From: Phocaeicola salanitronis DSM 18170
GTDB taxonomy: Bacteria > Bacteroidota > Bacteroidia > Bacteroidales > Bacteroidaceae
Direction: 5' to 3'
Assembly: GCF_000190575.1 (NCBI RefSeq)
Contig: NC_015164.1
Span: 2,551,001-2,615,000 of the forward strand
Length of the DNA stretch: 64,000 bases
Positions within the stretch are counted from its first letter, which is position 1. Each line of letters starts with the position of its first letter. The translations under genes were made by a program, and so were the position numbers. This document shows positions 429 to 55,970 of the stretch, piece after piece. The notes under the pieces are model-generated. The model did no database searches. It was not told where the DNA came from and saw nothing but the letters and a program-made list of their open reading frames with translations.

Positions 429-489
429 ACGATTACTAATCGTGCAGCGTTACGATTACTAATCGTATCGGTTGACGATTACTAATCGT
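429..489. repeat. Triple-palindrome cluster A (3 x 15 bp, 23-bp period)
   Basis: Three perfect copies of ACGATTACTAATCGT occur at 429-443, 452-466 and 475-489. Each is a 7-bp inverted repeat around one central base. The copies are separated by two different 8-base spacers, giving an exact 23-bp period. The cluster lies between the 3' end of rpsO and the beta-lactamase promoter. Cluster C (26938-26998) has the same palindrome on the opposite strand. No function is known to me. Confidence 0.9.
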
Positions 490-561
490 ACAAGCTACGA
501 AGTTATGTTGCTCAGGCGGACAAGGCATGTATTACTTCCCGAGAACATACGTATCCTGACA

Positions 562-607
562 AAACAAAACCGGCATATAGCTGATTCACATCAGATATAT
601 GCCGGTT
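562..607 (-). terminator. rpsO terminator
   Basis: A 12-bp perfect stem pairs AACCGGCATATA (568-579) with TATATGCCGGTT (596-607), and an inner CTGAT/ATCAG pair extends it. On the minus strand it is followed by the T-rich run TTTTGTTTTG. It sits about 60 bases downstream of the rpsO stop codon. Confidence 0.8.
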
Positions 608-665
608 CATACGGTTAAGAGGGTCTTCCGATTGCCTCCCTGTACGTTTGCAGCAAGTAATGAAA

Positions 666-935
666 TTACTTACGCAGACCGAGTTCCTTCACAATGGCAC
701 GGTATCTTTCGATGTCGCGGTTCTTTAAGTAAAGCAACAAAGAACGGCGCTTTCCTACCAATGTAGTCAGAGCTCTTTCAGTGCTATAATCTTTTCTGTT
801 GAGCTTCATGTGCTCAGTCAGGTGAGAAATACGGTATGAAAACAATGCAATCTGAGATTCAGGCGATCCAGTATCAGTGTTAGACTTTCCGTACTTTTCA
901 AAGATTTCTTGTTTTTTAGCTGCGTCTAAATACAT
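666..935 (-). CDS. rpsO: 30S ribosomal protein S15
   Basis: This 89-residue protein has the length and sequence of bacterial S15: TGSPESQIALFSYRI in the first half, the LTEHMKLNRKDYS helix turn, and the C-terminal KRRSLLLYLKNRD region that contacts 16S rRNA. S15 is a primary binder of the small-subunit platform and also interacts with h20-h22 of 16S rRNA. The ATG at 935 follows a -7 box at 988-981, and a strong terminator lies downstream, so this is a single-gene unit. It is divergent from the rhamnosidase-sialidase gene at 1115. Nothing is unusual in the sequence. Confidence 0.97.
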   Translation of the reverse strand: MYLDAAKKQEIFEKYGKSNTDTGSPESQIALFSYRISHLTEHMKLNRKDYSTERALTTLVGKRRSLLLYLKNRDIERYRAIVKELGLRK

Positions 936-980
936 AGTTTTGACTGTTTGATTATTAGATAAAATTCGATTTGCGGGTGC

Positions 981-988
981 AAAGATAG
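981..988 (-). promoter_or_regulatory. -7 promoter element of rpsO
   Basis: TATCTTTG on the minus strand is a perfect TAnnTTTG match, 46 bases before the rpsO ATG. A TTGC about 18 bases further upstream can serve as the -33 element. The leader of about 40 bases is long enough for regulation but shows no clear fold. Confidence 0.6.
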
Positions 989-1114
989 GAATAATCTTTC
1001 AGATAGCAATACGTTTACAACATTTTTCTTATGGAAATAAAGCGTGAATCCGCATTTTTTTGTACCTTTAGCCCGATTAAAATAAAAAAGTTTCACACAA
1101 AACCTTAGTACAAC

Positions 1115-4100
1115 ATGAATACACATCTTCATGCCCGGTTCATCAGGCTCGCCTGCTGGCTCTGCCTCTTGCTTCCGCTCGGAAGCATGGCACAGGAGGT
1201 ATCTGTCTCACACTTAACCACCGAACACCTTGCCAACCCCATGGGAATCGATACGTCCACACCCCGGCTAAGCTGGCAATTGGAATCGGACCAAAAGAAC
1301 GTCCGGCAAGAAGCGTATCATATCCTGGTCGCTTCCACGCCGGAATTGCTGGCGCAAGACAAAGGCGACCTTTGGGATTCGGGGAAAACAGCATCCGCCG
1401 AGTCACAAAACATCGTATACGCCGGAAAAGCATTGAAAAGCGACACCCGGTGCTATTGGAAAGTGAAAAGCTATACATCGGCGGGCGAAACGGCTTGGAG
1501 CGAGACCAGCCGATGGAGCGTCGGGCTATTGGGAGAAGTGCATTGGAAAGGAAGATGGATTGGCTGGGACCAGCCCTCCGCATGGGACAGGGAAGATGCC
1601 CATAGCCGTCTGAGCGCGCGCTACCTGCGCAAAGAGTTCGAGGTAAAAAAGCCCGTCAAGCAAGCCACGGTCTACATCTGCGGGCTGGGCATGTACGAAC
1701 TGTTCATCAACGGCAAGCGGATAGGCGACCAAGTGCTTGCCCCTCTCCCTTCCGATTACCGCAAGACCTTATTCTACGACACATACGATGCAACGTCCTT
1801 GCTTACAGACAAGAATGCCATCGGTGTCACACTGGGGAACGGACGCTACTACACCATGCAGCAACACTACCGGACCTATAAAATCGTCAATTTCGGTTAT
1901 CCCAAGCTCCGCATGAACCTGCTCATCACGTATCAGGACGGAACCACCGAAACCATCAAGAGCGATACCGACTGGCGCATCACCACCGACGGCCCCATCC
2001 GGAGCAACAATGAATACGACGGGGAGACGTATGACGCACGCAAGGAACTGGGCGACTGGACCCTGCCCGGATATGACGATAGCCAATGGAAACCGGTGCA
2101 ACGTGTCGGAGCACCGGGAGGAACTCCGCGTGGAATGATTACTCCGCCGATGAAGGTCATCAAAACCATCCAGCCGGTGCATATACGTGCGAAGGGCGAC
2201 CGATATATAGTGGACATGGGGCAGAATATAGCCGGATGGCTCCGCGCACGTATATGTGGAAACGAGGGTGACACCATCCGCCTGCGCTTTGCCGAGACTT
2301 TGACACCCGAAGGAGAACTGTACACCGCCAACTTGCGCGAAGCACAATCCACCGATTATTATATATGCAACGGGAAGGAGAACGGAAAGACCTGGGCGCC
2401 CCGCTTCGTTTACCACGGCTTCCGCTATGTGGAAATATCCGGATACAAGGACGCGGAACTCTCCGACTTTACGGGTGAGGTGGTAAGCGATGAGGTAGAG
2501 CCTACCGGCACGTTCGAGTGTTCCGACGAGACCCTGAACCGTGTGTACAAGAATGCCTGGTGGGGTATTTTAGGAAACTATAAAGGCATGCCCGTCGATT
2601 GTCCGCAACGCGACGAACGCCAGCCTTGGCTGGGCGACCGCACCATGGGATGCTGGGGCGAAAGTTACCTGTTCGACATCAACACGCTTTATAGCAAATG
2701 GACGCGCGACATCTGCGAATCCCAGCGCGAGGACGGATGCTTCAGCAATGTCGCTCCGGCTTTCTGGATGTATTATGATGACAATGTCACCTGGCCTGCC
2801 GTGCTTCCTTTCGCCTGCGACATGCTTTACACCCAGTTCGGAAACCGGGAACCGATGGAACGGTGCTACCCTGCCATCCGCAAATGGATGCTTCACCTGC
2901 GCCGGGAATACATGCAAGACGGGCTGATTACCAAAGACAAATACGGAGACTGGTGCGTTCCGCCCGAATCGCTGGAACTGATTCATAGCAAAGACCCGGC
3001 ACGCATCACCGACGGGACATTGATTTCTACGGCTTATTACATCAAATTGCTCGATGTCATGCAACGCTTCGCCTCCCTGCAGAACCTGAAAGAAGACCAG
3101 GCGCAATGGGCTGCATGGGCAAAGGAGATGAAAGAAGCGTTCAACCGCAAATACCTGCATATCCGGCGGAGAACTTCCCAAAAGCCCGGGCATCCGCTTT
3201 ATCCCGACAGTGTCTACTATGGGAATAATACGGTGACTTCCAACGTATTGCCATTGGCATTCAACATCGTCCCCAACGATTGCAAGGAAGATGTTGCCAA
3301 ACAAATCGTTTCTACCACCATTCTGAAAAACGGAGGACACATCAGTTGCGGAGTCATCGGCGTACAATGGCTATTGCAGGAACTTTCCCGGAACGGCTTT
3401 GCCGATGTCGCCTTCCTGCTGGCTTCGAAAAAGACATATCCTTCGTGGGGGTACATGGCAGAGCAAGGAGCCACCACCACATGGGAACTCTGGAACGGGA
3501 ATACCGCCGACCCCAAGATGAACAGCGGGAATCATGTCATGCTGTTAGGCGGCCTCCTGCCCTGGTGCTACGAGCATGCGGCAGGCATCCGAAGCGACAG
3601 CACCCAGACCGGGTTCCGGCATATCATCTTGAAGCCGGACTTTGACATACAGAACTTATTCTGGGCAAAAGCCTCCTACCGTTGCCCGTACGGCACCATC
3701 AAAAGCGCATGGAAAAAGACACTGACCCACCTGGAGTGGGACATCACCATACCGTGCAACACCACGGCTGAAGTCCATCTTCCCGACGGGAGAGTAGAGC
3801 AAATCGGCTCGGGAGACTATCACTATTCGGCAGACATTCCCGCACTTCACCCAGCGGTACTCGAAAACCAGTTCCTCTATGAAAAAGCCTCATTCCCCGA
3901 ATGCCATGCCTCTACGATTGTAGAACTGGAAAACGGGGACTTAGTGGCTGCCTTTTTCGGCGGAACCAAAGAGCGCAATCCGGACGTATGCATCTGGGTA
4001 TGCCGCAAGCCGAAAGGAAGCGACACGTGGACGGAGCCGGTGAAAGTAGCCGACGGAGTATTCGACCTGAACGACCCGGATGCCAAGATAGCCGGCATCA

Positions 4101-4936
4101 CCGCCGATATCAAAGACCACCGGAAAGCTTGCTGGAACCCAGTACTGTTCCAAGTGCCCGGAGGAGACCTGTTGCTCTTCTTCAAAATCGGACTGAACGT
4201 GCCCGACTGGACAGGTTGGCTGGTACGCTCTAAAGACGGAGGAAAGACATGGAGCCGGCGCGAAGCACTTCCCCAAGGCTTTTTAGGGCCGATTAAAAAC
4301 AAGCCCGAATTTATCAACGGACGCATCCTCTGCCCTTCGAGCACCGAAGGAGAACAAGGCTGGCGCATCCACATCGAATATTCGGACGACATGGGCAAGA
4401 CGTGGAAAACAACAGGCCCGATACCCGCAGAGCTGGAATTCCCCAGCCAATACCGGAACATGAATGCGGACGAAAAGGAAAAACGCCCCATTCTGGTTAT
4501 CCAGCCCAGCATCCTGAAACACAAAGACGGTACCTTGCAAGTCATCTGCCGCACCCGCAACTCGCACCTTGCCACTTCGTGGAGCAAGGACAACGGAAGC
4601 ACCTGGAGCAAGGTGACACTCATTGAGGGTCTGCCCAACAACAATTCGGGAACCGATGCCGTCACGTTGCAAGACGGACGCCACGCACTGGTATACAACA
4701 ACTTCAGCCCGCTATTAGGCGACAAGAAGGGCGTGCGCACGCCTATCAACCTTGCCTTGTCGGACGATGGCATCCACTGGACTCCTGTGCTCACGCTGGA
4801 AGATTCGCCGGTACGCGAGTATTCATACCCTGCCATTATCCAAGGGAAAGACGGGAAATTACACATTACGTTCACTTGGAGACGCGAACTTATTAAATAC
4901 ATGGAGATTGATTTGAACAAATTGGAGAAAAAATAG
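1115..4936 (+). CDS. Secreted GH78 alpha-L-rhamnosidase fused to a BNR sialidase-like domain
   Basis: The protein has 1273 residues with a Sec signal peptide ending in GSMAQ (about residue 26). Residues ~30-900 carry the GH78 architecture: N-terminal beta-sandwich domains, then the (alpha/alpha)6 barrel. The family motif DCPQRDERQPWLGD begins at D495 and gives candidate acidic residues E501 and D508. WELWNG (W790, E791) supplies the second acidic position. GH78 enzymes remove terminal alpha-L-rhamnose from plant glycans such as pectin. From about residue 920 a second domain starts (ECHASTIVELENGDLVAAFFGG). It has Asp-box repeats (SKDGGKTW, SDDMGKTW, SKDNGSTW) typical of BNR sialidase-like propellers, but I see no canonical GH33 RIP motif, so its substrate is uncertain. 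The gene stands alone, divergent from rpsO, and the typA promoter overlaps its last codons. Confidence 0.88.
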   Translation: MNTHLHARFIRLACWLCLLLPLGSMAQEVSVSHLTTEHLANPMGIDTSTPRLSWQLESDQKNVRQEAYHILVASTPELLAQDKGDLWDSGKTASAESQNIVYAGKALKSDTRCYWKVKSYTSAGETAWSETSRWSVGLLGEVHWKGRWIGWDQPSAWDREDAHSRLSARYLRKEFEVKKPVKQATVYICGLGMYELFINGKRIGDQVLAPLPSDYRKTLFYDTYDATSLLTDKNAIGVTLGNGRYYTMQQHYRTYKIVNFGYPKLRMNLLITYQDGTTETIKSDTDWRITTDGPIRSNNEYDGETYDARKELGDWTLPGYDDSQWKPVQRVGAPGGTPRGMITPPMKVIKTIQPVHIRAKGDRYIVDMGQNIAGWLRARICGNEGDTIRLRFAETLTPEGELYTANLREAQSTDYYICNGKENGKTWAPRFVYHGFRYVEISGYKDAELSDFTGEVVSDEVEPTGTFECSDETLNRVYKNAWWGILGNYKGMPVDCPQRDERQPWLGDRTMGCWGESYLFDINTLYSKWTRDICESQREDGCFSNVAPAFWMYYDDNVTWPAVLPFACDMLYTQFGNREPMERCYPAIRKWMLHLRREYMQDGLITKDKYGDWCVPPESLELIHSKDPARITDGTLISTAYYIKLLDVMQRFASLQNLKEDQAQWAAWAKEMKEAFNRKYLHIRRRTSQKPGHPLYPDSVYYGNNTVTSNVLPLAFNIVPNDCKEDVAKQIVSTTILKNGGHISCGVIGVQWLLQELSRNGFADVAFLLASKKTYPSWGYMAEQGATTTWELWNGNTADPKMNSGNHVMLLGGLLPWCYEHAAGIRSDSTQTGFRHIILKPDFDIQNLFWAKASYRCPYGTIKSAWKKTLTHLEWDITIPCNTTAEVHLPDGRVEQIGSGDYHYSADIPALHPAVLENQFLYEKASFPECHASTIVELENGDLVAAFFGGTKERNPDVCIWVCRKPKGSDTWTEPVKVADGVFDLNDPDAKIAGITADIKDHRKACWNPVLFQVPGGDLLLFFKIGLNVPDWTGWLVRSKDGGKTWSRREALPQGFLGPIKNKPEFINGRILCPSSTEGEQGWRIHIEYSDDMGKTWKTTGPIPAELEFPSQYRNMNADEKEKRPILVIQPSILKHKDGTLQVICRTRNSHLATSWSKDNGSTWSKVTLIEGLPNNNSGTDAVTLQDGRHALVYNNFSPLLGDKKGVRTPINLALSDDGIHWTPVLTLEDSPVREYSYPAIIQGKDGKLHITFTWRRELIKYMEIDLNKLEKK

Positions 4937-4944
4937 TAACTTTG
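4912..4944 (+). promoter_or_regulatory. typA promoter, embedded in the 3' end of the rhamnosidase gene
   Basis: A -33 TTTG (4912-4915), a 21-base spacer and a -7 TAACTTTG (4937-4944) form a full Bacteroidales promoter. The -33 half lies inside the coding end of the upstream gene and its TAG stop (4934-4936) touches the -7 box. This supports the ATG at 4966 as the typA start, since an upstream TTG in the same frame lies inside the -7 box. Confidence 0.75.
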
Positions 4945-4965
4945 CGCCCAAATAATAGGTATAGT

Positions 4966-6771
4966 ATGCAAGACATTAGAAACATTGCCATCATTGCCCA
5001 CGTAGACCATGGAAAGACAACGCTGGTGGACAAGATGATGCTGGCGGGACATTTGTTCCGCAACGACCAGACCAATGGTGAACTGGTATTGGATAACAAC
5101 GACTTGGAACGTGAAAGAGGGATAACCATCCTTTCGAAGAATGTATCTATCAACTATAAGGGTACGAAAATCAACATCATCGATACGCCGGGACACGCCG
5201 ACTTCGGTGGTGAAGTGGAACGTGTATTGAATATGGCAGACGGATGCATCCTGCTGGTAGACGCTTTCGAAGGCCCGATGCCGCAGACACGTTTCGTGCT
5301 GCAGAAAGCATTGCAAATCGGCTTGAAACCCATCGTAGTAGTGAACAAGGTAGACAAGCCCAATTGCCGTCCCGAAGAAGTATATGAAATGGTGTTCGAC
5401 CTGATGTTCAGCCTCAACGCAACAGAAGACCAGCTGGATTTCCCCGTATTATACGGCTCGGCAAAAAACAACTGGATGGGCGAAGACTGGAAAACGCCTA
5501 CGGGCACTATCGAACCGTTGCTGGACGCTATCGTAAAATACATTCCTGCCCCCAAGCAACTGGAAGGCACCCCGCAAATGCTGATTACATCGCTCGACTA
5601 TTCATCGTACACGGGACGTATCGCCGTGGGGCGTGTTCACCGCGGCACCATTAGCGAAGGCATGAACATCACGCTGGCAAAACGCGACGGAAGTATGGTG
5701 AAATCCAAAATCAAGGAAGTACATACCTTCGAAGGATTGGGACGCAAGAAAGTGCAGTCGGTGTCTTCGGGCGATATCTGTGCGGTAATCGGTATAGAAG
5801 GATTTGAAATCGGCGACACCATCTGCGATTTCGAAAACCCGGAACCGCTTCCCCCTATCGCCATCGATGAGCCTACGATGAGCATGTTGTTTACCATCAA
5901 CGACTCTCCTTTCTTCGGGAAAGAGGGCAAATACGTAACTTCTCGCCACATACAAGACCGCCTGATGAAAGAGCTGGACAAGAACCTCGCCCTGCGCGTC
6001 CGCAAGACCGAGAATGAAGACGGCAAATGGATTGTATCGGGACGTGGTGTGCTGCACCTTTCGGTACTGATTGAAACCATGCGCCGCGAAGGCTATGAGT
6101 TGCAGGTAGGTCAGCCGCAGGTTATCTACAAAGAGATAGACGGGGTGCGTTGCGAGCCGATTGAAGAACTTACCATCAGCGTTCCCGAAGAATTTGCCAG
6201 CAAGATGATTGACATGGTGACCCGCCGTAAAGGCGAAATGGTTTCGATGGAAACGCAAGGCGACCGTGTGAACATCGAGTTCGATATGCCATCGCGCGGT
6301 ATCATCGGATTGCGTACCAACGTATTGACTGCATCGCAAGGAGAAGCCATCATGGCACACCGCTTCAAGGAATACCAACCCTACAAGGGAGATATTCCAC
6401 GCCGCACCAACGGGTCGATGATTGCCATGGAAAGCGGTACTGCCTTCGCGTATGCCATCGATAAGCTGCAGGACCGCGGACGCTTCTTCATCTATCCGCA
6501 AGAAGAAGTCTATGCCGGACAGGTAGTAGGCGAACACGTGCATGAGAACGATTTAGTGATAAACGTCACAAAGTCGAAAAAACTGACCAACATGCGTGCA
6601 TCGGGTTCGGACGACAAGGCACGCATCATCCCTCCGGTCGTATTCTCGCTGGAAGAAGCATTGGAATACATCAAGGAAGACGAATACGTAGAAGTAACAC
6701 CCAAGAGCATGCGTATGCGTAAGATTATCCTCGACGAGACCGAGCGCAAACGTGCGAACAAGAACAGCTGA
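4966..6771 (+). CDS. typA: Ribosome-associated GTPase TypA/BipA
   Basis: This 601-residue translational GTPase starts MQDIRNIAIIAHVDHGKTTL. The G1 loop is AHVDHGKT (residues 11-18), followed by DTPGHADF (G3) and NKVDKP (G4). The EF-G-like domains II, III and V and the BipA-specific C-terminal domain (GSDDKARIIPPVVFSLEEALEYI) are complete, and the length is normal for the family. BipA binds the ribosome and assists 50S assembly and translation under stress or cold. The frame extends upstream to a TTG at 4942, but that codon overlaps the promoter -7 box, so ATG 4966 is chosen. A hairpin terminator follows, making this a monocistronic unit. Confidence 0.97.
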   Translation: MQDIRNIAIIAHVDHGKTTLVDKMMLAGHLFRNDQTNGELVLDNNDLERERGITILSKNVSINYKGTKINIIDTPGHADFGGEVERVLNMADGCILLVDAFEGPMPQTRFVLQKALQIGLKPIVVVNKVDKPNCRPEEVYEMVFDLMFSLNATEDQLDFPVLYGSAKNNWMGEDWKTPTGTIEPLLDAIVKYIPAPKQLEGTPQMLITSLDYSSYTGRIAVGRVHRGTISEGMNITLAKRDGSMVKSKIKEVHTFEGLGRKKVQSVSSGDICAVIGIEGFEIGDTICDFENPEPLPPIAIDEPTMSMLFTINDSPFFGKEGKYVTSRHIQDRLMKELDKNLALRVRKTENEDGKWIVSGRGVLHLSVLIETMRREGYELQVGQPQVIYKEIDGVRCEPIEELTISVPEEFASKMIDMVTRRKGEMVSMETQGDRVNIEFDMPSRGIIGLRTNVLTASQGEAIMAHRFKEYQPYKGDIPRRTNGSMIAMESGTAFAYAIDKLQDRGRFFIYPQEEVYAGQVVGEHVHENDLVINVTKSKKLTNMRASGSDDKARIIPPVVFSLEEALEYIKEDEYVEVTPKSMRMRKIILDETERKRANKNS

Positions 6772-6794
6772 TACGTAATAACGGCATAAAAATA

Positions 6795-6851
6795 AAAAAG
6801 CACGGAAAAAGTTTTTTTTAATTCAATAAAGACCTTAATTCCGTGCTTTTT
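6795..6851 (+). terminator. typA terminator
   Basis: The stem AAAAAGCACGGAA (6795-6807) pairs with TTCCGTGCTTTTT (6839-6851) across a 31-base AT-rich loop. It is 24 bases past the typA stop codon and ends in a T run. Confidence 0.75.
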
Positions 6852-6857
6852 CTATTT

Positions 6858-7113
6858 TTACCGCTGGTTGATAATTTCAATAATACCAGGCAACTCTGTG
6901 ATAGAATCAATAACATAATGCGCACCAGCTTTCAGCATACGGAAACGGACGTCCGGACGGCAGATTATCAGAAGTTACACAATTATCCACCACATACCCT
7001 TTACAGGCTGCAGCCGGAATCACCACATCCATCATCTGCCGCGTATAACCCGAAGTAAAACCTATCTTAATGCCCACTTCGTGCAATCCTGACATTGTTT
7101 CCACACGGCAAGG
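6858..7113 (-). pseudogene. phnX: Relic of phnX (phosphonoacetaldehyde hydrolase)
   Basis: The minus strand encodes GIKIGFTSGYTRQMMDVVIPAA, then VVDNCVTSDNLPSGRPFPY, a good match to the central part of PhnX, which cleaves phosphonoacetaldehyde to acetaldehyde and phosphate in 2-aminoethylphosphonate use. At about 6940 the frame jumps, and a +1 frame continues as MLKAGAHYVIDSITELPGIIEIINQR with a stop at 6858, which is the PhnX C-terminal end. The segment between them (about 60-80 residues in the family) is deleted. The N-terminal half is absent too: the homology stops near 7113, where a recombinase relic on the other strand begins. This is therefore a doubly truncated, internally deleted remnant. 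Confidence 0.78.
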
Positions 7114-7281: not shown

Positions 7282-7487
7282 AAAAGCCATTTTGAGCATT
7301 TAGTGTGGACTTCTGAAATTCAATACATTAAAACAAAAGAGCCGACTAACGTACCACCAGACTATAAAACTCATGAAGGAACAATTCACGTTCTATTATG
7401 CCATTCTTATTATATTACTATAGAATTATTTTTATTGATTATCAGTTAAATCTCTCCGCGTTTATTATCTAAATCAATTATTATTAG
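7282..7487. other. Gene-free stretch between recombinase relic and LuxR gene
   Basis: This AT-rich stretch carries no convincing reading frame, hairpin or repeat. It ends in the -7 box of the following gene. Confidence 0.6.
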
Positions 7488-11827: not shown

Positions 11828-11878
11828 ACTTTCGCGAGCCTGTGAAACTATATGTGTACATGCCTGCAACTAAAAAAA

Positions 11879-11998
11879 GTTTTTGAGGCATTTTCGCTTC
11901 TGTGATAAGGAAGATAGCGGGCTATCTGACGAAAAACAGGAGCGAAAAGGACAAAAAAATCGCCCAAATCATCGCACGATAAATTCAAAACAGCTTCT
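11879..11998. repeat. MITE-like repeat, copy 1 (partial)
   Basis: This segment holds the same ~95-bp imperfect hairpin as the copy at 56005: TTTTCGCTTCTGT pairs with ACAGGAGCGAAAA around GATAGCGGGCTATC. It ends in AAATTCAAAACAGCTTC, the terminal inverted repeat of copy 2. It lacks the opposite terminal repeat. Relative to the shared end, the hairpin is inverted compared with copy 2. Confidence 0.7.
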
Positions 11999-12099
11999 AA
12001 AAAAATGCGCTCATTATCTGCAAGAGCATAGCCTTAATCATCAAAACACCCCACTGCATACCTTCCGGCACAAGGATATATTCTATGTTCTCGATATGA

Positions 12100-12157
12100 A
12101 AACCGTACGGTTTCCATATCAAAACCATACGGTTTCCAATTCAAGGCCGTACGGTTT
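12100..12157. repeat. Triple-palindrome cluster B (3 x 14 bp, 22-bp period)
   Basis: AAACCGTACGGTTT (12100-12113), AAACCATACGGTTT (12122-12135) and AGGCCGTACGGTTT (12144-12157) are centred exactly 22 bases apart with 8-base spacers. The cluster lies between the MFS gene and the ABC exporter gene, both on the plus strand. Its architecture matches clusters A, C, D and E, but the sequence is unrelated. Confidence 0.88.
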
Positions 12158-12284
12158 TCATATCGAGAACATAAAATGAAGCCTATAGATTCACCAAACT
12201 GACAGAGGCAAAAACGAAAACCATTCTGCCTCCTGCCGAAAAGCCGTAAACGGGATTTTGCCCAACAATTTTGCTTCAAGGACA

Positions 12285-26800: not shown

Positions 26801-26937
26801 TTTCAATTAACGTGCAAAAATACAAACTTCTTGCGGAAATAAAAAATGAATTATCCAAAGGCATTTATTTTTCTACACGTCCGACATCCGTCCGGAAGCC
26901 TGTTTCATTTATCGCCGCATATAGCCGCGTTGCTTGT

Positions 26938-26998
26938 ACGATTAGTAATCGTCACGCCGCACGATTAATAATTGTCATGCTGTACGATTAGTAATCGT
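26938..26998. repeat. Triple-palindrome cluster C (3 x 15 bp, 23-bp period)
   Basis: ACGATTAGTAATCGT occurs at 26938-26952 and 26984-26998, with a variant ACGATTAATAATTGT at 26961-26975. The period is exactly 23 with 8-base spacers. This is the cluster A palindrome read on the other strand. It lies between mksF and the beta-helix lipoprotein gene. Confidence 0.9.
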
Positions 26999-27022
26999 AC
27001 CGGCTGCGCGGCTATAAAACAA

Positions 27023-32657: not shown

Positions 32658-32842
32658 ATTATATTGCTTTTCAATTCACTCTACAAAAGTAATCAAATTC
32701 CTTTTATGTAGCAAGCTTTTATCGGATGGGCGGCAATCAGCCCTTATCCTCCACATTATTTATTATAAAAGACAAGCCAATTTCATTGAACCGATAACTG
32801 AAAATCTTCATGCACTTAGCTACATTCTATATTCCACCAGCC

Positions 32843-32898
32843 GGAATATACATTCCACGGGCTGGAATGTACGTTCCATGGGCTGGAATATACATTCC
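32843..32898. repeat. Triple-palindrome cluster D (3 x 14 bp, 21-bp period)
   Basis: GGAATATACATTCC (32843-32856), GGAATGTACGTTCC (32864-32877) and GGAATATACATTCC (32885-32898) are centred 21 bases apart. Half units flank the array (TATTCC at about 32830, GGAATG at about 32906). It lies in the divergent gap between the HxlR relic and the MBL-like gene. Confidence 0.88.
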
Positions 32899-33075
32899 AC
32901 GCCGTGGAATGTAGAATGGAACTAACTGCATACAAGAAACAAGCTCGTTGAAAACACATAGTGAGCACACGCAATCTGCCAAATATAGAAGCTGATGAAA
33001 CTACGGACATTCACTCATTTTTTTCAAAAAATATGGGTCTGTAACTAACTTGTATACAGCAATGGTTACTTCCTC

Positions 33076-48361: not shown

Positions 48362-51300
48362 TTTTTATATTTTAAAAGTCTACCATTGTTATTTGTAGCG
48401 GTTGAATACTTTTCCCAACTTTTATATTCTATCACATTACGATAATCTTGTTTCCCTGTTAAAACAGGTTCCATGATACCATAAATATTTTTCATTACAC
48501 GCATTAACTTGTTTCCCAATGTAGGAGACGAATAAGTATAATAATTCCGAACTACTTTATCGGTTCTTTTACCACCTGTTACAAAGTAATCAAAATAGTT
48601 TAAAGGAGAATTTTCCGGATTAGCCAAAACATCAGTTCTTGTATTTATCTTCTGAGTTTTACTCAAAGAAAAGACATCATACATCTCATTTACTATTTCC
48701 GTTTCTCCGGTGGTCACAGTTGTCTTATTCTTTCCTGTTGAATAAGGCTGTTCTCTGGATATTTCCGAACTTATCTGTTGGACTGGATTAATGGAATATC
48801 CATTTTGACGGGCTTTAAGCTGGGATGCTTGATAATCATAAGATTGTTCTATTATATCCTTCATATCACCCAGCATATTATTGTTACCTATCCTTTCATA
48901 AGTCCTATCATTAAATGATATTGTCCGACTATTCAAATTCCTATTAAAATACAATTCACCGGTTTCATGGTAGATATACCAATCAGCACCATCCAAGTCA
49001 ACATTACATATCGGATTATTGACACAATAAGAATAAGGAGTAAAAGTACAATACTTTTCCGCCATCGGGTCAACAGCATGCCAACGCCCCAAAGCAGCAT
49101 CATAATGGCGCGCACCATAATCATACCAGTTCAGACCGTTCTTATTATCGAACTCCTTACCATTATACTTATAAGGCTGCACATTGTTCGCTGCCGCGAA
49201 TACCCCGCCGAAAGGATAGTAATGGTTCGTTTCCTCTACCGTCCCCGTTGAGCTGATAACCACACGGTTATTCCCTTGATGGTCTTTCAGGTAATAATGG
49301 TACTTGCTGTCAGCCAAGGTGACATAACCCTCTTCCGTCAACAACAGCTTCTGCGTGCCGTTTTCATAGACCACATTGCCGCAATAGTCAGTCGTGGTGG
49401 TCGTACTTCCTGTCTTATGCACCGTGCGTAGCTTTGTGCCATCCGCTGCATACAGATAGGTTATCGTGTTTCCGTTCCCGAACGTGACCTTGCTTGGCAA
49501 ATTTAAACAATTATATTGAATACCTGTAATGTTCTTGTTCAAATCTTTCGTCAGGTTGCCGTTTTTATCGTATGCATACTCGTTCGCCTGCTTTACGGCA
49601 TCTTTGAACTCGAAGCCGTTGTTGTAAGCGGTGGTGCTGGTGGCATCGTCCACCCTCGTTACCTGATTACCGCTCAGCATGTAAGTCAGGTTGTCTATCA
49701 AGCCGTATGCACTCGATGAAGTCTGGCCATAACGCTGCAAGCCCGTGATGTTGCCGTTCTTGTCATAACCCGTAACCTTTTCCGTAAAGCGGTTCGCGTT
49801 GCAGCTGATGTTTGTACCCTCACCGTAAGTGGCGGTGGTCAGACGGTTCAGGTTATCATACGAGAACTTATACCCCCTTGTCACGCTTTCATTACCAGCC
49901 TTCCAAGTCAGGCTGCTGATATTGCCGTTATAGCAGAACGTACCGGAACCGTCCGTATAATGAACCGATTGAGTGAACTGGCTGCCGCTGATGCCCGTCA
50001 GCCAGTTGCGGATGTTATAAGCGTAGGTCACCTTATTCGATGTGCTGCCGTGGAGGCTTTTCGTCTCCAAACGCTCCAAGCCGTCATACGTATAGCCGGC
50101 AAGCGTGACCTGAGTGCTGCCCAATTTATGGGCAACCTTGGTCAGGCGGTCTGCGTTGTCGTAAGTATAGGTGTACACCTCAGTACGCCCCGTCTTCCCG
50201 CTTGCCGTATGCGTACGGGTCACTGTTGAGGGATGGCTTGTAAACGTATAGCTCGTGCCCGTCACGTCATAACCCCCAAGCAGGTTGCTCCGCACTTCTT
50301 TCACCACCCTGCCACGGTAGTCATAGTAGTAAGCCGCATATTGCTTGTCCATGCTGCCCAGTACCGCCGTAACCGTAGCCGTCAGCAGCCCTTTCGCGTT
50401 CACCGTGCCGGCAGGGAAGTTGCTGTTGTTGAAACCGCTTTGGCTGCGGAAACTGTAGTCGTCGTAATAGTGCTGCAACAACACCGTCTTCCCCGAAGAT
50501 ACGTTCTTGTTCGTGCATTCGCCCTGTTCAGTCAGGCGGTCAAGGTCGTCATACAGGTAATACGTCCATTTGTTCGATGCACGCTGGACGCCGTCCTGCG
50601 AAAATGTCAGGCGGTCGTCATTGTCGTACACATAAGTCACGGCATCAGCACCCGGAACTTTCTTCTCCACAATACGACCGCGGCTGTCATACTTATAACG
50701 GAAAGCGTACTTGTCCGCATCTGCCGTGCTTTGGTACATCGGCTGAAGCACAAAAGCAAGGCGGTCCATCGGGTCATAGACATAATAGGTGTCGGAATAT
50801 TCGCTGCCCGATACACGGCGGAGTAAGATCAGGCGGTCTTTCACATCCTTAAACGTATAAACCGTATGCCCGTCTTCGTCCGTCTCGCCGGTCACACGGA
50901 ACGTACCTGCCGGGTAAGTGCCGTCCGCGCTCAGCGTACCCGAAGAACTTACCACATAACGCGTGCACTTCAGTTTCGCATCGCCCGTGCTGTTCACATA
51001 ATAGCTCCACCCTTTCGGATTGTCCGTAAACTCCCAGCCCAAAGCATAACGCTGGTCAGGATAAGAAAGCAGGCTTCGCTTGTAATTGGTCTGCTCGTAA
51101 GGCGCGTCATCATTAAAATAAGATGTGCTTGCGTTACGCAATGTGCTAAGAGATACATACGCTCCGTTATTGCCTGACTTCGGAAACAACGTCCACTGGT
51201 TTGTCGGACGGTCCATGTCATCATATTCGGTATAGCTCACCAAATCGGCGGAAGAAGGGCTGCGTCCCTGAAGTACCGTTTCTTCCAATCTACCTAAGTT

Positions 51301-51480
51301 ATCGAAATACTGCACCGTACGCAAACTGTTCGATGAGCTTAGGCTCGAAGCGGAGGATACACCTGTCAGTGAGGTACGTATCCGGATATAATTATGGCTT
51401 GTGCTCTGCCCCATAAGCGGAAGGAAGCAAGCCAACTGAAGGGCAAGGATGCCCGCTAATGTCATCTTCTTGTGTCTCAT
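48358..51480 (-). CDS. Full-length Sec-exported Rhs protein (DUF6443 + Rhs core + tip 1)
   Basis: The product has 1040 residues. A signal peptide (ILALQLACFLPLMGQ) ends near residue 25. It is followed by a DUF6443-like region (NYIRIRTSL, VQYFDNLGRLEETVLQGRSP, VSYTEYDDMDRPTNQW; ~28-125) and YD/Rhs repeats (~200-800) such as YKYDSRGRIVEKKVPG and YDYRGRVVKEVRS. The Rhs-associated core (KDHQGNNRVVIS, NGKEFDNKNGLNWYDYGARH, GRWHAVDPMAEKY) ends near residue 815 with VDLDG. The ~215-residue tip 1 (ADWYIYHETGELYFNRNLN...) is unlike tip 2 and not recognised. Rhs shells encase a C-terminal toxin. Here export would be by Sec rather than T6SS, since no PAAR or VgrG is present. It follows the partner gene after 26 bases. 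Confidence 0.87.
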   Translation of the reverse strand: MRHKKMTLAGILALQLACFLPLMGQSTSHNYIRIRTSLTGVSSASSLSSSNSLRTVQYFDNLGRLEETVLQGRSPSSADLVSYTEYDDMDRPTNQWTLFPKSGNNGAYVSLSTLRNASTSYFNDDAPYEQTNYKRSLLSYPDQRYALGWEFTDNPKGWSYYVNSTGDAKLKCTRYVVSSSGTLSADGTYPAGTFRVTGETDEDGHTVYTFKDVKDRLILLRRVSGSEYSDTYYVYDPMDRLAFVLQPMYQSTADADKYAFRYKYDSRGRIVEKKVPGADAVTYVYDNDDRLTFSQDGVQRASNKWTYYLYDDLDRLTEQGECTNKNVSSGKTVLLQHYYDDYSFRSQSGFNNSNFPAGTVNAKGLLTATVTAVLGSMDKQYAAYYYDYRGRVVKEVRSNLLGGYDVTGTSYTFTSHPSTVTRTHTASGKTGRTEVYTYTYDNADRLTKVAHKLGSTQVTLAGYTYDGLERLETKSLHGSTSNKVTYAYNIRNWLTGISGSQFTQSVHYTDGSGTFCYNGNISSLTWKAGNESVTRGYKFSYDNLNRLTTATYGEGTNISCNANRFTEKVTGYDKNGNITGLQRYGQTSSSAYGLIDNLTYMLSGNQVTRVDDATSTTAYNNGFEFKDAVKQANEYAYDKNGNLTKDLNKNITGIQYNCLNLPSKVTFGNGNTITYLYAADGTKLRTVHKTGSTTTTTDYCGNVVYENGTQKLLLTEEGYVTLADSKYHYYLKDHQGNNRVVISSTGTVEETNHYYPFGGVFAAANNVQPYKYNGKEFDNKNGLNWYDYGARHYDAALGRWHAVDPMAEKYCTFTPYSYCVNNPICNVDLDGADWYIYHETGELYFNRNLNSRTISFNDRTYERIGNNNMLGDMKDIIEQSYDYQASQLKARQNGYSINPVQQISSEISREQPYSTGKNKTTVTTGETEIVNEMYDVFSLSKTQKINTRTDVLANPENSPLNYFDYFVTGGKRTDKVVRNYYTYSSPTLGNKLMRVMKNIYGIMEPVLTGKQDYRNVIEYKSWEKYSTATNNNGRLLKYKK

Positions 51481-51506
51481 ACTAGTAATTTCTTTATTTT
51501 ATTGTT

Positions 51507-54500
51507 TTATCGGTTATAATGATAATCATAGCATTCTACAAGCTGCTTCGTGCTGCCGTTCTTGATGAACACCTCCGAAAGCCTTCCGCCCGTGTCATAC
51601 GTATATCCTGTAACAAAACCTTTAGGGTCGGTCACTTGGGTTACGCCTACCAGCGGACTATAGACGTATGTCGTCACTTCGGCATCCGGAAGGCTGCTAC
51701 GAAGTCCGTCCACTTTTGTCCAGTCTGACGATGACGGAGCATTCTTCGTGCAAAGGCTTTTGATAAAACTTTCGCCCAACTTCGACTTTACCTCTGCATA
51801 GCTTGCGTTCCGTATCTCTGCAACTAAGTGTTGCCCGTTATAGCTCCATAAGTAAACTGTTTCCTGACCGCGCGACACTGCTGACATCGGTTTGCCATTG
51901 TCCGTCAGATTACCCAACCAAGTATGGGGCTTGAAGCTACTCTGATACGATGAAGAAGTCAATGGAGCAGTGGCTTCCAACGTATATAAAGCTTTCGGCA
52001 CGACAACACCCAATGTGTCCGTGTATTCCAACCGGGCACCTTCCGTCACCTTGCCATCCTTCAGCAGGAGTGTTTCCAAAGGAACGCCGATGAGATGCAA
52101 ATTCTGCATCTTGCGGGATACTGCATCCGACTTATCGCCCGCATACACATACTTCTTGCCGTAGCTGTCCGCACTTGTAGAAGAAGACGAAACCAGCGTT
52201 TCTTCTTCAGCCAGTTGCTTATCGCCGTTATATTCGAAACGGCTGTCTGTATACACCGAAGCACCGTTCCGGTAATCTTTGATAACTTCACCCGTCTTAT
52301 AATACTGCTTTACCGTATACGAATAAGGATGTACGGCGGAAGCCCCGCTGTCGAACATAAAACCATATACCGCTTGCGAACTTTGGTTTCCATAACTATA
52401 CGTTACCTCTTTATCCAACGAACCGCTGCCATTATAGGTCTCCACAGAAGACGGAAGCCCGTTCATATAATTAACAGATGTTGGCATGAACGGATAATCG
52501 CCCAATGAAGACTCTTGCGAGTTAAAGTAACGGTACAATGTCTTGCCATAAGAGCCTACAGTTTCCGTCACGTTATCATAGCCTACCATGTAACCGTGTT
52601 TCAAAGTAGAAAGCGGAATGCACGACTCGGACAATTGAACCAGATAACTGGTCCGGCTTGTAGAAGACGTTCCGTCCAGGCATACATAATCTTTCAGGTA
52701 ATACAACGACGGTTCTATCAACAATTTGCCTGTAGGATAACTGAACGTGCGTGTCCGGGCATCCGTACGGATTTGCTTGATGCGCAAGCCTCCGCCTTCC
52801 TTTACGCTTCCGGTTTGCGTAACCGTGCTTTCATACTGAGCCGTAAAGCCATAAAGCACGTCTGCAGCCTGGGCAATCAGTTCCAGCTTATATGTACCTG
52901 CGGTCAGGTAAAGCGTCTTCACCGGATAATCATACGAACCTCCGCCGCTTTGCAGTTCACCGGGCATACCATAGGCTAACAATACTTCGCCTTTACTATT
53001 TGTCAAGCGAAACACAGGATAATTGTCCGCATCATCGTACCGGATACTCGTATCCCCCTGCGAAGTCATGCAATCCGCCCAACCGGTAATGCGCACATTG
53101 GTGCTTTTCCCCAACGTAATGGTTTCCGTATCTGTACGCGGATAATCCTCGTAGAAATCATCGTTCACATACTTGTATGCCATTAAGTTGCGGGTTTCCT
53201 GAGTAACGGTAGTCCCCGTACTGCTTCCGGACGTGTACGTATTCGATTCGTAGGTAAAATCCGTCTCGTTACCTGTAGGACCGGTTATCTTGCCAAGCAT
53301 ATACGTATCCGCAAATTCCGATACGGCATCTTTGCTCACGCCACTATAAACCCTACCGCCGTAATTGGCTGCCGAATAATAGGTGTCGCCATAGACCTTT
53401 CCATTCCAATACCCCCAATAATCTGTATTTCGCGAGTTCTTGGCAGGCATCGTCTTATCCTCCAAATAAGAGAAGTCATATCCGTAATCCGGAACGGTTA
53501 CATCCGTCAAACTGTTCAACTTCAACCGTTTGAACACATGAGGATAATCACCGGTATAGCTCGAATTAAAATACCCGTAACCGAAAGAATATTCTTTTAT
53601 CCGGTTACCCGACGAATCAGAAACTTTCAAACTATTGAGCTTCTGTGGAGCACCGGCAGTTCCGCTTCCACGCACATCTTCCCTGCTTCCGCAAGTGAAT
53701 GAAATACTGCCTCCATCCCAAGAAATGCCAGACAAACGAAGACTTTCTACCACCGTCTTATCACATGTAAACTGCACCGAAGCACCCGGACCGCAACCTG
53801 TCGCACCGCTTGAGTCCAAAGTCTCGTATGCTTTACACTGCTCTTGGGCAGGAGACTGGTAAGATTCCTTTGCATAAGTAAAACGAATTGTCCGGTTAGT
53901 AGGCGTAATGATTTGACTCAAATACCAACTGGAAGTAAACCTGACCGGGCTTTCATACAAATTCAGATTACTTTCATCGTATTTGCCACCCGAATTCCGG
54001 TTCAACGAACCGTTGCGGTGATAAGACGAAGTGACTTCATAATCCTGAAAAACATACTGGCACCCGTCCGGAGCAGTCAACTTGAAATATTTCTTGCTTC
54101 CATCGGCAAGCACTTCTATCTTTACATTCGGATCCCAGTCCAGCAATACTGCTCCTCTGGATTTATCAAGCAGGAATTTGCCCGAAGCACCCGGATAAGT
54201 AAAACTGAACACATCCGGTTCAGAATCAACCACCAACACTTTCTTTACCGCCGAACCTTCCATTGTTGTGGCATACAAACTGGATAGTTCCGGATTGCTA
54301 ACTTCCGGACCTGTGTAATAACCCGATTTCACGGAAATTCCCGGATAGGTGTATTCATTAAAATCATCGTAACACTTCAGGGTGCGCGAAATGACACCGC
54401 CCACATTCAGCGACCATCCCAATCCGACCCAAGAAGCTTCTTGAGCAACCCGAATGCCGGAAGCATGGTAATTTAACGAAATAGGAAACTTATAACCGTC

Positions 54501-54719
54501 CACTTCTATTTCATATAATGGGATGGAAATCTCAGGAACGCCTGTATAATAAGATACCGGATAATCGGCATATGCAATCAGAGAACTGACGGTAGGAGAA
54601 GCCGGTACATACGTAGGCAACTCACTTTGACCGTTTACTGGAGACACAACAGTCAGCATCGCCGCAAATAACGATGCCCAACCGGCACGTTTCTTATTTT
54701 TATTCTTATCTTTCATCAT
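51507..54719 (-). CDS. Rhs partner protein (YD repeats, Sec-exported)
   Basis: The product has 1070 residues from ATG 54719 (a second ATG is next to it). A Lys-rich N-terminus (MMKDKNKNKKRAGWASLFAA) leads into a signal peptide ending near SPVNGQ. The early segment PVSYYTGVPEISIPLYEIEV, then SLNYHASGIRV and VGLGWSLNVGGVISR, is typical of the N-terminal shell part of Bacteroidota Rhs/SpvB-like proteins. Scattered YD-like repeats follow, and the end is VTGYTYDTGGRLSEVFIKNG, then QLVECYDYHYN. It has no associated-core motif and no toxin tip. It probably forms the other part of a two-protein shell with the next gene. It lies 68 bases downstream of the 31-aa gene, under the same promoter. Confidence 0.8.
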   Translation of the reverse strand: MMKDKNKNKKRAGWASLFAAMLTVVSPVNGQSELPTYVPASPTVSSLIAYADYPVSYYTGVPEISIPLYEIEVDGYKFPISLNYHASGIRVAQEASWVGLGWSLNVGGVISRTLKCYDDFNEYTYPGISVKSGYYTGPEVSNPELSSLYATTMEGSAVKKVLVVDSEPDVFSFTYPGASGKFLLDKSRGAVLLDWDPNVKIEVLADGSKKYFKLTAPDGCQYVFQDYEVTSSYHRNGSLNRNSGGKYDESNLNLYESPVRFTSSWYLSQIITPTNRTIRFTYAKESYQSPAQEQCKAYETLDSSGATGCGPGASVQFTCDKTVVESLRLSGISWDGGSISFTCGSREDVRGSGTAGAPQKLNSLKVSDSSGNRIKEYSFGYGYFNSSYTGDYPHVFKRLKLNSLTDVTVPDYGYDFSYLEDKTMPAKNSRNTDYWGYWNGKVYGDTYYSAANYGGRVYSGVSKDAVSEFADTYMLGKITGPTGNETDFTYESNTYTSGSSTGTTVTQETRNLMAYKYVNDDFYEDYPRTDTETITLGKSTNVRITGWADCMTSQGDTSIRYDDADNYPVFRLTNSKGEVLLAYGMPGELQSGGGSYDYPVKTLYLTAGTYKLELIAQAADVLYGFTAQYESTVTQTGSVKEGGGLRIKQIRTDARTRTFSYPTGKLLIEPSLYYLKDYVCLDGTSSTSRTSYLVQLSESCIPLSTLKHGYMVGYDNVTETVGSYGKTLYRYFNSQESSLGDYPFMPTSVNYMNGLPSSVETYNGSGSLDKEVTYSYGNQSSQAVYGFMFDSGASAVHPYSYTVKQYYKTGEVIKDYRNGASVYTDSRFEYNGDKQLAEEETLVSSSSTSADSYGKKYVYAGDKSDAVSRKMQNLHLIGVPLETLLLKDGKVTEGARLEYTDTLGVVVPKALYTLEATAPLTSSSYQSSFKPHTWLGNLTDNGKPMSAVSRGQETVYLWSYNGQHLVAEIRNASYAEVKSKLGESFIKSLCTKNAPSSSDWTKVDGLRSSLPDAEVTTYVYSPLVGVTQVTDPKGFVTGYTYDTGGRLSEVFIKNGSTKQLVECYDYHYNR

Positions 54720-54787
54720 AAATCTATGTTGTTTCGTTCATTTATGCGGAAGTGCGCTTTCACACTCCCGCTTTTTAATATCACTAA

Positions 54788-54883
54788 CTAGTTCATCGCA
54801 TTCGCGCCCAAAGCGCCGGCTATGGCAGATGCCACGGCAATGATTACCTTCAACACCAAATCCCAAACTCCTTTTTTCGTCAT
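54788..54883 (-). CDS. 31-residue 'smalltalk'-like small protein
   Basis: An ATG at 54883 opens 31 codons to TAG at 54788: MTKKGVWDLVLKVIIAV followed by ASAIAGALGANAMN. It has a charged N-terminus, then one hydrophobic segment (~residues 9-28). This fits the small Bacteroidales proteins annotated as smalltalk, as I remember them. A strong Shine-Dalgarno GGAGG precedes it, which is rare in this window and supports translation. It is the first gene of the Rhs transcription unit. Its function is unknown; a holin-like, signalling or leader role is possible. Confidence 0.7.
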   Translation of the reverse strand: MTKKGVWDLVLKVIIAVASAIAGALGANAMN

Positions 54884-54890
54884 ACGCTAT

Positions 54891-54899
54891 TCCTCCTTT
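54891..54899 (-). promoter_or_regulatory. Unusually strong Shine-Dalgarno of the small protein
   Basis: AAAGGAGGA on the minus strand ends 7 bases before the ATG at 54883. Genes around it have no such site, as usual in Bacteroidota, so it marks the small frame as real. Confidence 0.75.
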
Positions 54900-54973
54900 A
54901 ATTAAATTGTTAGTAAAATTCGTTATTATTCCGTACGCGTACTTGCAAGAGTTAATATTTATTCGTTTCTTTG

Positions 54974-55073
54974 CACTAACTAACTCTTACACGATGCAAA
55001 TATACTAACTATTATTGATAAAACAAGAGCTTTCGATTAAAATAGTTAGTATTTAGCAGAAGTTAACTAACTA
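54974..55073. promoter_or_regulatory. Promoter of the Rhs unit bracketed by repressor-type operators
   Basis: On the minus strand TATATTTG (55004-54997) is a perfect -7 box, with TTGT (55026-55023) 18 bases upstream. An 11-bp inverted repeat, TACTAACTATT (55003-55013) and AATAGTTAGTA (55041-55051), covers the -7 edge and the region upstream of -33. Further ACTAAC/GTTAGT half-sites lie at 54975-54984 and 55062-55072. This is the layout of an operator cluster for the divergent HTH-S24 repressor. Confidence 0.65.
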
Positions 55074-55102
55074 CACACAAACTTACATTAGTATATAAGC
55101 GT

Positions 55103-55864
55103 ATGGAAGGATGGGAAAGAATCAAATTCATTATGGAAAAGGAAGGGTATAATAAGAACTCGTTCAGCTACGCCATCGGGATGAGCAACAACGTGACGAT
55201 AACCCGGCTGATTAACGAAAAGCGGAAACCCTCGCCAAACACCTGCGCCAAAATAGCGCAACGGTTCCCTCAGTACAATCCGGAATGGATACTGAACGGA
55301 ACAGGAAACATGTACCGGACAGAAACAGGAACGCATATAGAAGATCCAAATACAGCAACAGAAAAAGCTGTACATCAACTAATCGCAAGAAATGAAGGCA
55401 GACAAATAGAAAACGCATTATTCATGAATGTGCCGCTCATACACGTCCGGGCACAATGCGGATACCTGAACGGATACGGCGATAAAGAATACATCGAATC
55501 CTTGCCCACGCTTCCCGTAATTGTAGACAAGACTTATCACGGCAATTATCGTCTGTTCGAAGCAGAAGGAGACAGCATGGATGACGGAAGCCGGCACTCT
55601 ATCTGCGACGGGGATATCGTGTTGGGACGGGAGGTACAACGCCCGCTGTGGCAATACAAACTCCACATCAACGACTGGTATTTCATCATTGTACACCGCA
55701 CGGAAGGTATTTCCATCAAGAAAATCATCGACCACGATGTGGAGCACGGCATAATTACCTGCCATTCGCTGAACAATATGTTCCAAGATTATAAAGTACC
55801 TCTGGACGAGGTGGCAGAACTGTTCAATCTGATTAAAATCGTAGACCGGAGCGCAAGACTATAA
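55103..55864 (+). CDS. HTH-S24 (LexA/CI-like) autoproteolytic repressor
   Basis: This 253-residue cytosolic protein has an N-terminal XRE-type helix-turn-helix (~residues 1-65: FSYAIGMSNNVTITRLINEK, then CAKIAQRFPQYNPEWILNGTG). The C-terminal S24 peptidase domain carries the cleavage-site-like AQCGYLNG near residue 118, the catalytic Ser in EAEGDSMDDG and a Lys in GISIKKIID. Such proteins repress phage or SOS-type genes until RecA-ssDNA triggers self-cleavage. It is divergent from the Rhs unit, whose promoter is bracketed by inverted repeats, so it is the likely regulator. No prophage genes accompany it. The product may instead respond to another signal. Confidence 0.88.
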   Translation: MEGWERIKFIMEKEGYNKNSFSYAIGMSNNVTITRLINEKRKPSPNTCAKIAQRFPQYNPEWILNGTGNMYRTETGTHIEDPNTATEKAVHQLIARNEGRQIENALFMNVPLIHVRAQCGYLNGYGDKEYIESLPTLPVIVDKTYHGNYRLFEAEGDSMDDGSRHSICDGDIVLGREVQRPLWQYKLHINDWYFIIVHRTEGISIKKIIDHDVEHGIITCHSLNNMFQDYKVPLDEVAELFNLIKIVDRSARL

Positions 55865-55912
55865 GCCTGCTTTAAAAAAGGAGACAACATTCTCATCCGG
55901 TTTAGATATACT

Positions 55913-55970
55913 AAAACTACAGTTTCAGTGCATTGAAACCATAGTTTCAGCCTACCAAAACTATAGTTTC
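55913..55970. repeat. Triple-palindrome cluster E (3 x 14 bp, 22-bp period)
   Basis: AAAACTACAGTTTC (55913-55926), GAAACCATAGTTTC (55935-55948) and AAAACTATAGTTTC (55957-55970) are centred 22 bases apart with 8-base spacers. They are degenerate versions of GAAACTATAGTTTC. A possible decayed fourth unit lies near 55986. The cluster follows the repressor gene, between convergent genes. Confidence 0.85.

Follow-up and report, generated by a model that had tools for sequence, protein, structure and literature searches.

A 64,000-nucleotide stretch of the Phocaeicola salanitronis DSM 18170 genome (the window; positions 2,551,001-2,615,000 of a 4.24-Mb contig, in a genome of 4.31 Mb labeled G000) contains five intergenic clusters of three short palindromes each, here called arrays A to E, and raises the question of what these arrays are and which genes they belong with. 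We consider it likely that the window clusters are solo copies of arrays found in the leaders of genes for HU-HIG proteins (PF18291), and that every HU-HIG protein recognises an array of its own, uses it for autoregulation and has solo sites across the genome. Four observations carry this interpretation: a paralogue-specific sequence match between window and leader arrays, the co-occurrence of array family A with its protein, leader and dispersed copies that differ in concert between two metagenome-assembled genomes (MAGs), and the recurrence of the arrangement in other Bacteroidales. The arrays are probably DNA-protein elements, one of the identities proposed in the preliminary description of this DNA. 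What that description missed is that the clusters are dispersed repeat families, and that each type, E so far excepted, also stands upstream of one HU-HIG gene of that genome.

Palindrome arrays and HU-HIG genes in one genome

All five clusters were recovered where they had first been described, with three units each and periods of 23, 22, 23, 21 and 22 bp for A to E; they have no assigned strand. Array A (411-507, units 429-489; outer ends placed by eye) consists of ACGATTACTAATCGT repeated three times, with degenerate outer arms. Array B (12084-12173, units 12100-12157) has three AAACCGTACGGTTT-type units and the outer half-sites TATGTTCT and AGAACATA. Array C (26920-27016, units 26938-26998) is enclosed by the outer inverted repeat TATAGCCGCG / CGCGGCTATA, array D (32825-32917, units 32843-32898) contains GGAAYRTAYRTTCC three times as well as outer half-sites, and array E (55900-55983, units 55913-55970), a solo copy of the GAAACTATAGTTTC family, has the outer half-sites GTTTA and TAAAC. 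Some units are imperfect (the third of B is GGCCGTACGGTTTT, the middle one of C is ACGATTAATAATTGT, and mismatches also occur in D and E), so that a palindrome scan of the window with exact arms of 6 recovered A only; arms of 7 with one mismatch recovered A, C and D. A full array is composed of a half-site, a spacer, three palindromes, a spacer and a second half-site, the half-palindromes lying one spacer beyond the outer units. As judged partly by reading the sequence, an outer inverted repeat surrounds each array, weakly in A, and dyad axes recur every 10.5-11.5 bp. The earlier statement that spacers are not conserved does not hold, as B spacers are mostly NNATATNN or NNAATTNN and D spacers are of few kinds (AGCCCAT, ATGGGCT, ACGGCGT and similar). 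Folding z-scores as DNA are -4.2 for A, -10.4 for B, -6.5 for C, -8.1 for D and -5.5 for E, and the arrays have strong hairpin potential when folded as RNA.

The partner gene was reached by clustering the proteins encoded beside ACGATTA arrays, the type of A and C, across genomes, which yielded one group of four, each from a different genome. The grouped open reading frame (ORF) is about 150 amino acids long, and its start faces the ACGATTA array, 67-69 bp away, in three genomes other than G000 (L062, L099, L129); in G000 itself the two are 263 bp apart owing to a repeat of ~195 bp inserted between array and gene. Its product is an HU-HIG protein, with PF18291 scores of 60.6 bits for the G000 member, HigA, and 81.1 bits for a relative in the MAG CALUIR, against a curated cut-off of 26.2. 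The genome has 14 PF18291 matches, among which HigA', HigB and HigD also exceed the cut-off and four (L233-L236) are short and HU-like. The NCBIfam model HU_rel matches too, above its own cut-off for HigD alone, and a PDB search at E 0.01 gave no match for HigA and one weak HU match for HigD.

Four HU-HIG paralogues each possess a different three-unit array upstream of the start codon, as read by eye. HigA (3,566,856-3,567,308, minus strand) is preceded by an A-type array, ACGATTANTAATCGT; HigA' (2,287,438-2,287,884, minus) by three copies of AAGATTATTAATCTT; HigB (match at 959,870-960,235, minus) by a B-type array, AGAACGTACGGTTT; and HigD (match at 1,746,410-1,746,775, plus) by a D-type array, GGAAYRTAYRTTCC. 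A promoter-like box, TAnnTTTG, is located ahead of the array in HigB and HigA' and, in a one-mismatch form (TATCTTTA), in HigD; it was not seen before the array of HigA. Inspection by eye gave no upstream array at L225-L228 or at the short HU-like L233-L236. Two near-identical HU-HIG genes ~26 kb apart (L229 and L230) have an upstream 22-bp repeat of the CTCGTCGGGGACAAACGAG type in 3-4 copies.

Searching the leaders against the window linked each paralogue to its own arrays: HigA matched A and C only, HigB matched B only apart from one 24-bp stray, HigD matched D only, and HigA' matched C only and more weakly. Identity to the HigA upstream array is 86% across 66 bp for A and 81% over 90 bp for C, the latter being 73% identical to the HigA' leader over 86 bp. 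Array B matches the HigB leader at 81% over 68 bp and 75% over 97 bp, and array D matches the HigD leader at 80% over 96 bp. By this sequence likeness, A and C are assigned to HigA, B to HigB and D to HigD.

The arrays are neither chance products nor confined to the window. Strict clusters were absent from 40 Markov shuffles of the window, and a strict detector run on 464 kb (the window together with stretches of this genome picked because they hold arrays) found 10 clusters against none in 5 shuffled sets; the count of 10 is a lower bound, because the imperfect even-centred families B, D and E are missed. Two-unit patterns of four families gave 19-29 matches per strand genome-wide, and reversed-pattern controls gave none. 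The 4.3-Mb genome contains 57 distinct places, of which 12 belong to the ACGATTA family (11 from the pattern search plus window array C, with four weaker places besides), 13 to AAACCGTACGGTTT, 11 to GGAATRTACRTTCC and 21 to GAAACTATAGTTTC, the family of array E; two of the 57 are HU-HIG upstream arrays themselves. In the AAGATTATTAATCTT variant (L196:4756) the outer arms are still those of the ACGATTA family. The same layout across distinct dispersed families bears out the idea of one architecture with several sequences.

The preliminary description also held that the palindromes number exactly three. Three is the mode, found in 48 of 56 scored copies in this genome, but it is not a rule; window array B itself was scored as two units because its third is degenerate. 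Among 101 ACGATTA arrays of other genomes, 61 have three units, 23 have two, 16 have four and one has five, and a single locus in two species (L068 and L197) differs by an exact 23-bp unit indel, so that unit number shifts by exact periods. Such changes fit the suggested copying within the cluster, which fails, however, to explain why copies across the genome have the same sequence as one array upstream of an HU-HIG gene.

Genes around the 56 copies are in tandem in 19 cases, divergent in 15 and convergent in 14, while seven copies lie within crude ORF calls and one at an edge. Because neighbouring gene orientation is mixed, the arrays are not simple terminators or promoters, as had been argued from the window, and both identities were rejected. 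CRISPR was rejected on layout (three units and spacers of 7-8 bp). Only a transfer RNA matched Rfam in the window at the gathering threshold, the arrays being without a match to a known structured RNA.

Recurrence and concerted change across genomes

Upstream regions of HU-HIG genes were scored for a three-unit array of period 20-25, and 23 of 40 exceeded the maximum of 400 shuffles. The 40 were drawn from 57 distinct PF18291 or HigA-like loci; the 17 left out comprise L233-L236, L267 and L272-L281 (short, partial or ordinary-HU), L242 (at a contig edge, with an array visible) and L247 (no array visible). The same cut-off was exceeded by 1 of 49 control upstreams from loci fetched for another gene and by 2 of 33 upstreams of other genes in HU-HIG loci, both of which share the HU-HIG array. 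Leader units vary widely (e.g., GTGGTAYGATCRTACCAC, GTCGGACAGCTGTCCGAC, GCTGTCAGCTGACAGC and TACGAACATGATCGTA). The TAnnTTTG box is situated 29-47 bp before the first palindrome in 9 of 22 leaders and 86-95 bp before it in 3; in the other 10 no box was seen.

Ten leader arrays were searched against ten genomes, and 46 extra copies were found in their own genomes (10 in G360, 9 in G131, 7 in G322, 6 in G380, 5 in G359, 4 in G315, 3 in G221, 2 weak ones in G207, and none in G249 and G219). The leader array has 3-10 further copies in 7 of the 10 genomes. Apart from one 25-bp match, the only cross-genome matches are those of the G380 array, at 8 places in G221. Inspection of 20 of the 46 copies as loci revealed an HU-HIG coding sequence in none, versus all 10 leader loci.

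Array and protein co-occur in family A. ACGATTA pairs are present in 6 of 251 genomes and a HigA-clade protein (at least 63% identity) in 5 of 251, all five within those six (Fisher p 7.5e-10; p 9e-8 when restricted to the 4 genomes with an ACGATTA upstream array). The ACGATTA array is shared, among others, by records of Phocaeicola intestinalis, Bacteroides sp. An322 and several MAGs of uncultured Bacteroides or Bacteroidaceae.

A concerted difference separates the related MAGs CASFPE (G025) and CALUIR (G051). The palindrome centre base is A/T in 63 of 63 units of CASFPE versus 6 of 111 in CALUIR, and in each MAG the dispersed copies have the centre base of their own HU-HIG leader (L241 in CASFPE, L240 in CALUIR). 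The comparison of the two took in array-bearing loci only, and 16 of 30 CASFPE array loci have blocks of more than 300 bp in common with array-bearing CALUIR loci. In nine such pairs that were aligned, the arrays adjoin the same shared block, the DNA of the gap being often unalignable, with the near-identical L067/L086 as the exception; copies therefore persist or are renewed in place.

Some flanks of arrays in these MAGs (L066, L110, L117) contain, by eye, further quasi-periodic units of the AAAACCTTGGAAGG type at ~22 bp, possibly another array family. Between G000 and P. intestinalis or the MAG CASENS, stretches of 98-99% identity were also observed (L068 1958-8000 versus L197 10513-16551, and L101 versus L194), while the adjoining array region of L068 and L197 is only 91% identical. 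These stretches probably reflect recent transfer or, in the MAG case, contamination. CASENS was considered as a near-strain pair of G000 and dismissed, since, despite one contig at 98% identity (L101), no real match to the L060 flank exists in G000.

Proposed function and alternative explanations

Under the proposed mechanism, HU-HIG dimers would bind successive array dyads two helical turns apart in a cooperative fashion; since dyads alternate every 10.5-11.5 bp, the half-sites would lie on one face of the helix. Binding to the leader copy would repress the protein's own gene, and the solo copies would offer additional platforms for titrating the protein and for bending or bridging DNA, forming a separate network for each paralogue. 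To a wider proposal we assign an even chance of being correct: that Bacteroidales maintain parallel, orthogonal nucleoid networks, in which each HU-HIG paralogue would be a sequence-specific HU, and the leader array would be both an autoregulatory switch and the mother copy of spreading, co-evolving solo arrays, a REPIN/RAYT-like partnership with an architectural protein replacing the transposase.

Several observations weigh against the pairing of HU-HIG proteins with their arrays. Family E, with its 21 places, has no partner among the 14 PF18291 matches or among the start-facing neighbours read, none of which is an HU-like protein facing the array. (Two viral contigs have an E-like pair, and in the parts examined no HU-HIG coding sequence was found; the ACGATTA pattern has zero matches in viral contigs.) The co-occurrence covers family A alone and is not strict, because G168 has ACGATTA copies while the HU-HIG gene found there has an A' leader (L239), and G103 has one ACGATTA match with no protein found; seven further genomes have HigA relatives of just 33-45% identity. 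PF18291 itself fires in 9 of 14 control genomes, including E. coli, where it matches ordinary HU, so the weakest of the 14 matches are ordinary HU-like proteins. The 40 scored upstreams include orthologues and near-identical pairs and are hence not independent, and 17 of them fall under the cut-off, although L246, L250, L251 and L252 appear array-bearing by eye and L232 fails because an insert pushes its array past 300 bp. Among upstreams in the stretches chosen for their arrays, 13 of 283 exceed the cut-off. Two of the ten leader arrays have no further copies, and some of the 46 copies are at contig ends and could have an unseen gene beside them. Protein similarity correlates with palindrome-unit similarity (Mantel r 0.67, p 2e-4, n=21; r 0.45, p 0.002 for 16 non-redundant), but the correlation would also follow from common descent of gene and leader, which contributes to it. 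Finally, mismatches within leader palindromes show an excess of G.T over A.C on the sense strand (33:18, p 0.049, in a scoring with several misplaced triples), a weak hint of an RNA role.

Family B bears on the origin of the solo copies. Several of its copies (L006, L007, L009, L010, L012, L013, L015) keep decayed promoter-like sequence resembling that of HigB and HigD on one side and leader sequence on the other, and in alignment they extend to the start codon or close to it, which gives them the look of a copied unit of promoter, array and leader that lacks the gene. No target-site duplication around the arrays was recognised by eye, outer inverted repeats being present, and no close-range empty site is among the genomes compared. 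For window array B, the best match in 61 genomes of the genus is Bacteroides sp. An322 (G140), whose neighbouring gene is only 83% identical, and so a clean empty site is lacking there. This gap, upstream of an ATP-binding cassette (ABC) transporter gene, holds a B array in G000 and a D array in An322 at a similar distance from the gene.

Other mobile DNA adjoins the arrays. A second dispersed repeat of ~105-200 bp, with inverted ends close to GAAGCTGTTTTGAATTT, is located at 11878-11984 and ~56006-56205 of the window, at ~9324-9520 of L198 and at five or more additional sites in this genome; copies of 87-96% identity exist in same-genus genomes. Its site beside the HU-HIG array of An322 (L062) is empty, with a junction that resembles a TAA duplication; it therefore behaves as a miniature inverted-repeat transposable element (MITE). 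An insertion sequence (L210 8753-10187, L021 and L031; ends also in L019, L025 and L208) encodes an IS3-type integrase, as identified by eye, and is found 50-72 bp away from the midpoints of six arrays of types D and E; arrays may thus attract insertions. Two places in this genome have copies, 97% identical, of a 2.3-kb segment that is bounded on one side by an E array (L208 10201-12501 and L210 10101-12413).

These surroundings could suggest that the arrays are selfish, MITE-like repeats mobilised in trans by some enzyme, with HU-HIG a captured or exploited host factor and the solo copies themselves functionless. The patchy spread (6 of 251 genomes), the mixed gene orientation, the promoter and leader sequence carried along with B arrays, the adjoining mobile repeats and the one gap with a B array in G000 and a D array in G140 would all suit such repeats. 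We nevertheless think this explanation rather unlikely, because no target-site duplication was recognised by eye, arrays stand beside the same shared block in nine aligned pairs from the 16 of 30 CASFPE loci with blocks in common with CALUIR, and the only Y1 transposase of the genome has other repeats beside it. That transposase is the single PF01797 match (L052; G000 3112897-3113244, minus strand); by reading, its flanks hold inverted repeats of their own (CGACCTCGAAGGGGTCG type) and none of the present arrays, which rules out a REP-associated tyrosine transposase (RAYT) as their partner in this genome. The L052 locus is possibly an ordinary RAYT/REP set.

Still less probable, and the least favoured of the alternatives, is that transcription factors unrelated to the HU-HIG proteins use the arrays as ordinary dispersed operators, with HU-HIG genes as mere regulated targets. 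Triple operators at ~23 bp, as in lambda, are a known layout, and the family E arrays, for which no HU-HIG neighbour was found, would be at home among such operators. What recurs, however, are whole arrays including spacers and half-sites, in B even promoter sequence, and each of four families pairs with a different HU-HIG paralogue, an arrangement that recurs in other families of the order. An action at the RNA level, which we regard as improbable, would make the leader array a set of tandem hairpins in the HU-HIG messenger RNA and the solo copies small RNAs or messenger RNA hairpins that bind HU-HIG. The TAnnTTTG box precedes the palindromes in 12 of 22 leaders, and many arrays are therefore probably transcribed; hairpin potential is strong, and the G.T excess points the same way. 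This excess is marginal, with some scored triples misplaced, while the mixed gene orientation around solo copies and the absence of any Rfam match in the window other than the transfer RNA argue against the RNA explanation. Its precedent is E. coli naRNA4, which derives from REP325 and acts with HU (PMC6907758).

Significance and comparison with known systems

HU proteins are known from textbooks as non-specific DNA benders. The HIG clade of the HU/IHF superfamily was reportedly described by Burroughs and colleagues in 2017 as expanded in Bacteroidetes; they are not known to have described cognate DNA arrays for it, and a literature search in open-licence papers found no description of palindrome arrays paired with HU-HIG. 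An expanded branch of HU appears to be paired, one paralogue to one array, with dispersed palindromic sites, unlike the textbook protein. Such a pairing suggests what a large, uncharacterised family of proteins in gut Bacteroidales may do, and would explain a class of unnamed intergenic repeats, possibly including the BrickBuilt repeats discussed below. It also offers ready-made sets of proteins and DNA sites for testing how nucleoid-protein specificity evolves and whether several independent networks of chromosome organisation operate simultaneously in bacteria.

The arrays resemble the REP, BIME and REPIN elements with their RAYT (TnpA-REP) partners in that intergenic palindromes are dispersed, a partner gene stands beside one copy, amplification is patchy and mobile insertions occur nearby. 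The partner there is a Y1 transposase, whereas here it is an HU-fold protein; the present units come in threes at 21-23 bp, and the cognate copy is the leader array upstream of the gene.

Two systems in which HU meets repetitive or palindromic DNA have been described. In E. coli, HU and the palindromic repeat REP325 act jointly in nucleoid condensation with participation of a repeat-encoded RNA, naRNA4; this is the general HU, the RNA takes part, and paralogue-specific arrays are not described in the parts of that paper available to us (PMC6907758). In Porphyromonas gingivalis, the HU protein PG0121 shows a preference for a 77-bp inverted repeat compared with a non-specific 77-mer and regulates a neighbouring locus; it differs from HU-HIG with its arrays in that a single locus is concerned, the HU is of ~10 kDa, and dispersed cognate copies are not described in the accessible portion of the report (PMC3969353).

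P. gingivalis also contains BrickBuilt, described as a MITE, with arrays of a 23-nt repeat at 19 intergenic places (PMC4596501). The published unit, AGAYCATARTATCCTCTCRTRTG, forms a partial dyad by our reading, and its 23-nt period and intergenic placement are like those of the present arrays. As compared from the published text available to us, BrickBuilt differs by having up to 22.8 repeats and long leader and tail segments, and no link to HU is drawn there (PMC4596501). One copy, the 84-nt BrickBuilt_14, is found upstream of PGN_0872 in a divergent gap; this gene is annotated as a 'DNA-binding protein (PF00216)' (PMC4596501, Table 1). BrickBuilt is the nearest published repeat to the present arrays, and BrickBuilt_14 may be a leader array that was not recognised as such.

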